The notes under the pieces: model-generated
What the model saw: the letters and a program-made list of their open reading frames with translations, nothing else
Databases searched by the model: none
What the model was told of the DNA's origin: nothing
Part shown: positions 51,912-64,000 of the stretch, in pieces
How positions within the stretch are numbered: the first letter of the stretch is position 1
How the letters are laid out: each line of letters opens with the position of its first letter
Program-made: the position numbers and the translations under genes
From: Candidatus Gastranaerophilales bacterium
Lineage (GTDB): Bacteria > Cyanobacteriota > Vampirovibrionia > Gastranaerophilales > Gastranaerophilaceae
Assembly (NCBI GenBank): GCA_017560095.1
Contig: JAFYOU010000034.1
Span: 1-64,000, forward strand
DNA length: 64,000 nt
Direction: 5' to 3'

Positions 51912-52943
51912 ATGAAAAAAATATTATTATTAACTTTATGTGCAATTCTGCTAAGTGGAAGTGCAATGTGTGCAAGTTCAAAATTAGATATTTTGACATT
52001 GTTTTCAACAAAATCATACTCAGCAAATAAAGCTTGGGTAGGCACATTTCAACTTGTTTGGAATGACATGAAAAATAATATTATTAAACATGATATAAAG
52101 TTTGTTAATGAAAAACCTACGCGTGAGCTTATTGGGTTAAATAATGAAGAGTTTAATTCTTCAATGTTAAATGATTCAAGCTATTATACAAGTTATGGTA
52201 AAACTGCGCCAAGTGAAAAAATAAAGATTGAAAAAGGAATTTTTGAAAAATTTGCTGAAAAATCCGATATTCTGGATTCTATGGATTGGTCTGAAGGAGA
52301 TGGAAAATATTATGCATACGCAATGTTAAAAAAGGAATTTGAGTTTTTTGAAGAATTTGATAAATTAGAAAACGCAAATTTTAATAACAAAGGTAAATTT
52401 GAATATTTTGGTATAAAAGAAAATTCTAAAGAAATTTTAGATGAAAATGTAAAAGTTTTATTTTATAACGGAAAAAATGATTATGCAGTTCAGCTTTTAA
52501 CTACAAAAGGTGATGTTATTTATTTATATAGAACAAATTCTAATGCATCATTTGATAAAATGTATGAAAAAATGTTAGTTAAAGCTGAAAAATACAAAGA
52601 TGATAGAGAGTTTTCTTCAGCAGATACTTTAAAAGTCCCAAATTTAAAAATAAATGAAATAAGAAAATATCCAAGTTTAACAAATAAGCAAATTGAAGGA
52701 ACGGATTTGTATTTTTCAGATGCTCTTGAAACATTGCAATTAGAATTAAATAATAAGGGCGGAAAAGTTAAATCGGAAGCGATGATTATGACAAAAATGT
52801 GTGCTTTGCCTGAATATACAAAAAAAATAACTTCAAGACATTTTAATTTTGATAAGACTTTTGCTATGTTTTTAGTTGATGCAAAAAAAGAAAGCCCATA
52901 TTTGGCATTAAAAATCAAGGATTTAACTAATTTTCAAAAATAA
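51912..52943 (+). CDS. Secreted serpin-like protein (divergent)
   Basis: 343 residues. A signal peptide (MKKILLLTLCAILLSGSAMCA) is followed by a domain that recalls serpins: residues about 240-250 read LKVPNLKINEI, like the serpin sheet strand, then LQLELNNKGGKVKSEA in the place of the hinge of the reactive loop, and HFNFDKTFAMFLVDAKK followed by YLALKIKDL matching the FxxDxPFxFxIxD and final strand. The reactive-loop hinge is not the canonical EEGTEAAAAT, so inhibitory activity is doubtful. A GGAG site precedes the ATG. It may bind or inhibit an extracytoplasmic protease, or be only structurally related. Confidence 0.6.
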   Translation: MKKILLLTLCAILLSGSAMCASSKLDILTLFSTKSYSANKAWVGTFQLVWNDMKNNIIKHDIKFVNEKPTRELIGLNNEEFNSSMLNDSSYYTSYGKTAPSEKIKIEKGIFEKFAEKSDILDSMDWSEGDGKYYAYAMLKKEFEFFEEFDKLENANFNNKGKFEYFGIKENSKEILDENVKVLFYNGKNDYAVQLLTTKGDVIYLYRTNSNASFDKMYEKMLVKAEKYKDDREFSSADTLKVPNLKINEIRKYPSLTNKQIEGTDLYFSDALETLQLELNNKGGKVKSEAMIMTKMCALPEYTKKITSRHFNFDKTFAMFLVDAKKESPYLALKIKDLTNFQK

Positions 52944-52960
52944 TGTTATAAAATTTTTTT

Positions 52961-53077
52961 GGCGGGAATTATAATAGTACCACGCAGACTGTTCGTGGAG
53001 ATAAATGCCCGCGACTGCTGTCGTGTGATGATTAATTGTTTAATCTTTGATTAAAAGCTCCTTTAAGGGAGCTTTTT
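52961..53077 (+). ncRNA. Candidate structured small RNA, first copy of GGCGGG motif
   Basis: About 117 nt in a gap between genes. TATAAA (52947-52952) ends 8 nt before GGCGGG. GCGGG (52962-52966) pairs with CCCGC (53008-53012), enclosing hairpin CCACG/CGTGG (52980-52984, 52994-52998). It ends at a rho-independent terminator. The first part matches a second element at 63960. No match to a known riboswitch was recognised by eye. Confidence 0.6.
53053..53077 (+). terminator. Rho-independent terminator after the candidate RNA
   Basis: AAAAGCTCC (53053-53061) pairs with GGAGCTTTT (53068-53076), loop TTTAAG, followed by T-run to 53077. Confidence 0.85.
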
Positions 53078-53205
53078 AAATACCCGAGTGAAGCGAAGCG
53101 TAGTCCGATGGACTAGCTGTGTAATTTATATGCAAATAATTATCCCTTGCAAAAAATATATTTTTGATGTTAAATAAAATAAGTTGAAAATCAAATAGCA
53201 TAGTT

Positions 53206-63959: not shown

Positions 63960-64000
63960 GGCGGGTAATTATAAAGCATGTGGCAAGAGATGCTATAAAA
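63960..64000 (+). ncRNA. Second copy of the GGCGGG structured element, cut by the window edge
   Basis: GGCGGG at 63960-63965, T, then AATTATAA as in the 52961 element, followed by hairpin AGCAT/ATGCT (63975-63979, 63990-63994, loop GTGGCAAGAG) and ATAAAA. The 3' part is outside the window, so the predicted CCCGC partner cannot be checked. Confidence 0.5.

Follow-up and report, generated by a model that had tools for sequence, protein, structure and literature searches.

Genomic locus of the small RNA

The analyzed window, a 64,000-nt stretch of DNA from a Candidatus Gastranaerophilales genome, belongs to an assembly of 2.07 Mb in 58 contigs. It contains a small RNA gene that follows the gene of a 343-aa protein (51912-52943), which begins with a signal-peptide-like stretch and matches no Pfam family above its cut-off. 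Near the far end of the window, a second place resembling the upstream part of this locus lies ahead of an SPFH/flotillin-type operon (Table 1). A sequence-only reading of the window had described the two places as two copies of one candidate structured RNA. The strings it reported are present at both, and GGCGGG-N0-2-AATTATAA matches only these two places in the whole assembly. As detailed below, the first place is an RNA gene and the second is of a different nature.

Table 1. Features of the small RNA gene and of the two upstream elements, in window coordinates
Feature	Position	Strand	Remarks
Conserved TGTTATAAA	52944-52952	+	Read as -35 (GTTATA at 52945-52950)
Conserved GGGAAT	52964-52969	+	Read as -10; 11 bases past TGTTATAAA in 24/29 copies, 12 in 5/29
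Small RNA	about 52979-53077	+	Approximately 99 nt; predicted 5′ end, 3′ end at the terminator; fold z -4.80
P1, 5′ strand CACGCAG	52981-52987	+	Pairs with 53018-53025; double changes in each of 4 model pairs
P2 hairpin TTCGTGG...CCCGCGA	52993-53014	+	Double changes in each of 6 model pairs
TAAA in P2 loop	53002-53005	+	Near-invariant
P1, 3′ strand CTGTCGTG	53018-53025	+	Partner of CACGCAG, with one bulged base
P3 GATTAATTGTTTAATC	53030-53045	+	AU-rich, nearly invariant
Intrinsic terminator AAAAGCTCC...GGGAGCTTTTT	53053-53077	+	In all 29 copies; double changes in 4/10 model pairs
Second promoter-like element TGTTAGAAA-N11-GGGTAA	63943-63968	+	71 bases before the gene at 64040; no RNA copy

Distribution across genomes

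With positions 52944-53082 as the query, a blastn search of 98 genomes recovered the small RNA locus in 27 of the 29 genomes from the window's genus, its own genome included. A covariance model trained on these 27 picked up the two genomes missed by blastn (116.2 and 84.3 bits), bringing the locus to 29 of the 29 genus genomes examined. The small RNA gene is intergenic and single-copy, and its named carriers include metagenome-assembled Candidatus Gastranaerophilales; RUG14156 is a genus name used by GTDB within Gastranaerophilaceae. A pattern scan of named species genomes returned 33 stretches, 27 of which match the covariance model, and the remaining six (L088, L093, L095, L108, L111, and L116) gave no model match at E 0.001.

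Outside the genus, blastn of the locus yielded short matches in five genomes from other genera. By-eye inspection covered L033, L034, and L035 among the five, the others being in G029 and G034, and rejected all three as homologues, since they read as terminators or coding sequence. When the covariance model was run against 191 genomes of the family, one genome from another genus (G237, 42.3 bits) passed the 0.001 threshold; this match was likewise discarded, being a plain terminator by eye. Against 30 genomes from other genera, the model found nothing convincing: weak matches (E up to 0.1) appeared in 13 of the 30, the best at 33.7 bits, and four of them, viewed as alignments, agreed mainly at the terminator. 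Because these searches scored 18 (191-genome search) and 108 (30-genome search) first-look candidates per genome, distant relatives of the small RNA may be missed. Viral contigs searched for the small RNA returned 0 matches. The gene appears restricted to one genus of Gastranaerophilales, with no detection outside it in searches of this depth.

Predicted fold and covariation

The fold conserved among the copies pairs the CACGCAG strand with the strand after GACTG, and CGTGG with CCCGCG. Comparison of the copies predicts a two-tier hairpin in the 5′ half, consisting of P1, an internal loop, and P2 with its TAAA loop; the 3′ half comprises the conserved AU-rich element and the terminator. The terminator proposed from the window alone proved real. 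The two helices proposed alongside it, the hairpin CCACG/CGTGG and a closing helix GCGGG/CCCGC, can both be drawn in the window's genome, but all five pairs are retained in only 3 of the 27 aligned copies for the former and in 4 of the 27 for the latter.

In the 29-row model alignment, 93.4% of the cells are paired. Double changes, in which both sides of a pair differ, occur in 14 of the 26 model pairs (shuffle mean 6.8) and in 50 cells (shuffle mean 15.0), and the covariation score is 0.259 (shuffle mean 0.136); 0 of 500 shuffles attain any of these figures. Two things tilt the figures towards the structure, namely that the alignment had been fitted to it and that the rows of the alignment are related. 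Sliding the alignment by one column lowers the score to about 0.06. A separate permutation check on 28 sequences compared strand pairings within and between genomes: 0 of 2000 partner permutations equaled the result for P1 (23 distinct), and 13 of 2000 that for P2 (15 distinct). The most diverged copy (L146) carries TTCAG/CTGAA in P2, where most others are CGTGG/CCTCG-like, and the middle P2 pair fails in 14 of the 29 copies.

P3 is almost invariant: four of its six pairs never vary, and none shows a double change. Its pairing is thus putative, and the element may be either a hairpin or a conserved unpaired contact site. Within 53030-53076 of the window, the TTTAATC of P3 could also pair with GATTAA on either side, as a 5′ partner or at the start of the terminator region, giving possible alternative folds.

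Conserved upstream element

TGTTA stands upstream of the small RNA in 29 of 29 copies, and the four letters that follow are kept at 86-96% (letter percentages refer to 28 copies, with L016 examined separately). The bases separating this block from the GGG site are variable. At the GGGAAT site itself, 28 of 28 copies have G at the second and third positions and A at the fifth, and the other positions are kept at 75-93%; the first G is replaced in 7 of the 28, and the site reads (G/A/T)GG(A/T)A(T/C) across copies.

PMC9847131 gives the Bacillus SigB consensus as GTTTAA-N15(±2)-GGGTAT, with a spacer of N12-17. Compared with that description, the element shares a GTT-rich -35, a GGG(A/T)A(A/T) -10, and a spacer of 13 or 14, which falls within 12-17, and it differs in having GTTATA or GTTAGA at -35 where the consensus has GTTTAA. 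On this likeness, we read the element as a putative sigma-B-type promoter. The -10 box that had been placed before the RNA lies inside the conserved element, but we read those letters as the -35 of this other promoter class and keep a housekeeping promoter as a rival, weighed below.

Nature of the second site

The second site carries TGTTAGAAA at the same spacing as TGTTATAAA of the small RNA locus. The pattern TGTTA[T/G]AAA-N11-GGG[A/T]A[A/T] (TGTTAKAAA-N11-GGGWAW) occurs exactly twice in the window against 0.01 expected, an expectation that is post hoc because the pattern was drawn after both sites and the relatives of the small RNA had been seen. With that reservation, the similarity of the two places appears to exceed chance once it is extended upstream. 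The string first reported, by comparison, has 4 and 2 matches in the window at up to three mismatches, against 1.38 and 1.25 expected, which is unremarkable.

A second RNA copy is contradicted on several counts. Beyond position 64000, neither the CCCGC that a second copy called for nor a terminator occurs before the gene at 64040. That gene occurs in 4 of the 29 genus genomes, counting the window's own, and the hairpin letters are absent by eye in all three others. Two of these three have the promoter-like element with unchanged spacing, C preceding GTTA in one and GGGCAA standing in the other; the third lacks it. A blastn search of the 28 other genus genomes with the region of the second site gave no match extending to the GGCGGG position, and the glmS side of the region, followed in 8 loci, lacked both the downstream gene and GGCGGG. 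That the two places differ in their stems, once taken as a sign of kept pairing, does not reflect compensatory change within one RNA; genuine compensatory changes occur between small RNA copies in different genomes. The shared upstream element, in all likelihood a promoter, accounts for the two-copy observation. Two look-alike promoters can be mistaken for two copies of one RNA.

Genome-wide occurrence and choice of sigma factor

Across the 29 genomes, GTTAKAAA-N10-12-GGGWAW showed no excess, with 45 matches against 44 in reversed controls. The small RNA itself accounts for 14 of the 45. Among the remaining 31, 18 lie inside open frames of at least 150 codons, of which two probably precede the true start, and five matches represent one recurring site inside a gene resembling glutamine synthetase by eye. 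A leading T is present in 10 of the 31; two such matches (L169 and L197) head into a convergent gene at its end, and the pairs L165/L194 and L166/L203, located at the end of the upstream gene, may owe their conservation to coding. In two genome pairs, the element precedes orthologous genes with different spacers: L189/L182, before a gene for a 94-aa-type protein without a Pfam family, and L175/L185, before one for a CHAP-like protein. The second site of the window and its relative L188 add to these pairs. A large regulon is unsupported by these counts, and if the element is an alternative-sigma promoter, its regulon would be small. A sample of 656467 of the 2073464 bases, a third of the genome, revealed no group-3 sigma factor.

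The likeliest alternative concerns the sigma factor rather than the RNA. In line with the -10 box and the start of the sequence-only reading, a housekeeping sigma factor would drive the same RNA gene, with TGTTATAAA as an extended -10, a start near 52960, and GGGAATTA as a conserved 5′ leader. TGTTATAAA does look like an extended -10, TGnTATAAT is the form found at the 6S genes of the genus, and the alternative pattern lacks a genome-wide excess. However, the last -10 letter is not T in the 29 copies, and TATAAA gives way to TAGAAA or TAGATA in several copies as well as at the second site, where TGTTA-AAA and GGG keep the same spacing without an RNA. The supposed leader pairs with P2 or P3 no better than chance. 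The 6S genes themselves can be read the other way: of their 28 loci, the 26 inspected all carry TGnTATAAT, in contrast with TGTTATAAA or its variants at the small RNA, and this speaks against TGTTATAAA being a plain housekeeping -10. We regard transcription by the housekeeping factor as possible but on the doubtful side.

Genomic context and coding potential

Upstream neighbors were compared across 27 loci: 16 are relatives of the 343-aa protein, 8 are Kdo-transferase-like genes, and 3 loci have neither. Relatives of the 343-aa protein adjoin the small RNA in most loci examined and stand twice in tandem in L008, L021, and L024. In 24 of the 27 loci, a same-strand gene of one of these two families ends just upstream, and the RNA could accordingly be pictured as a structured 3′ untranslated region with no gene of its own. 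The two families are unrelated, however, three loci lack both, and a conserved element precedes the RNA at fixed spacing. Furthermore, where convergent genes of these same two families flank the RNA, it occurs in both orientations, 6 genomes having one and 5 the other. The five are L009-L011, L014, and L015, the six L020, L022, L023, and L025-L027, as if the RNA had been inverted in place. The two upstream families and the opposite orientations indicate that the small RNA is not a fixed part of either gene, and a 3′ untranslated region is quite improbable.

Coding for a very short peptide or a leader peptide is less credible still. Many copies do contain a short frame that reads about EIK-LDC, but the 29 copies share no start, length, or stop, the longest start-to-stop frames range from 11 to 34 codons in differing settings, and the changes in P2 are compensatory. 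Conservation, compensatory changes in the structure, an intrinsic terminator of its own, and autonomy from its neighbors across the 27 loci characterize an independent structured RNA gene, as had been proposed for this place.

Comparison with known RNAs

A scan of the window and 20 relatives' loci against Rfam 15 returned only tRNAs at or above the gathering score; the best sub-threshold match reached 23.4 bits against a cut-off of 55. No known family matched the small RNA, in agreement with the initial failure to assign one. The Rfam 6S model found 0 of 24 genomes in the genus and 13 of 15 from other families of the order; in the 191 family genomes it matched 133, none of them among the 10 genus genomes in that sample. 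These misses had suggested that the small RNA replaces 6S, an idea contradicted by a 6S model built from ten relatives' 6S sequences, which detected 6S in 28 of the 29 genus genomes, never at the small RNA locus. The genus 6S loci (G000:C34:139455-139644 and 27 others, L117-L144) are diverged enough to escape the Rfam model. The SRP model RF00169 matched separate places in 26 of the 29 genomes, 25 above cut-off. With separate 6S and SRP RNAs in the genus, the small RNA replaces neither, and the notion that it is a diverged core RNA, prompted by the Rfam 6S misses, has a negligible chance of being right.

Like 6S RNA (RF00013), the gene encodes a single small RNA in the same genomes; unlike it, the RNA is about half as long, lacks the long irregular hairpin, and coexists with a separate 6S. 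Its closer likeness is to intrinsically terminated trans-acting bacterial small RNAs, with which it shares an intergenic position, a length of about 100 nt, a stable 5′ hairpin, a conserved AU-rich stretch, and an intrinsic terminator, although it matches none of the families catalogued in Rfam 15. Judged by title and abstract opening, none of the papers from a literature search deals with small RNAs in Gastranaerophilales, Melainabacteria, or Vampirovibrionia.

Proposed mode of action

The locus is a real, previously undescribed, genus-restricted small RNA gene, of a known kind and a new family. We put at about one in two the probability that it encodes a genus-specific, single-copy RNA driven by an alternative sigma factor and acting in trans, a reading built on its conservation, the covariation of P1 and P2, the terminator, the autonomy from neighboring genes, and the conserved upstream element. 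Transcription would proceed from the sigma-B-type promoter GTTATA-N13-GGGAAT and start about ten bases past GGGAAT, directly at the P1 stem, ending at the intrinsic terminator after approximately 99 nt. The RNA would most likely be produced under stress or starvation through the alternative sigma factor.

Once made, it would most likely act in trans: its AU-rich element or the loop may base-pair with mRNAs, or else a protein may be bound where P2 and the internal loop are conserved. The TAAA loop, the internal loop, and GATTAATTGTTTAATC are the candidate contact sites, and their partners, mRNA or protein, are conjectural. A more specific proposal joins a new RNA family universal in the genus, a sigma-B-like stress promoter, protein binding through the P2 loop and the internal loop, and a promoter class shared with the flotillin-type membrane operon; in this full form, we consider it unlikely.

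Biological significance

The hosts of this RNA are gut-dwelling, non-photosynthetic relatives of cyanobacteria. Its presence in every examined species of the genus, together with co-varying stems, points to a real function in these uncultured gut bacteria, and the conserved upstream element offers a testable guess at when the small RNA may be made.
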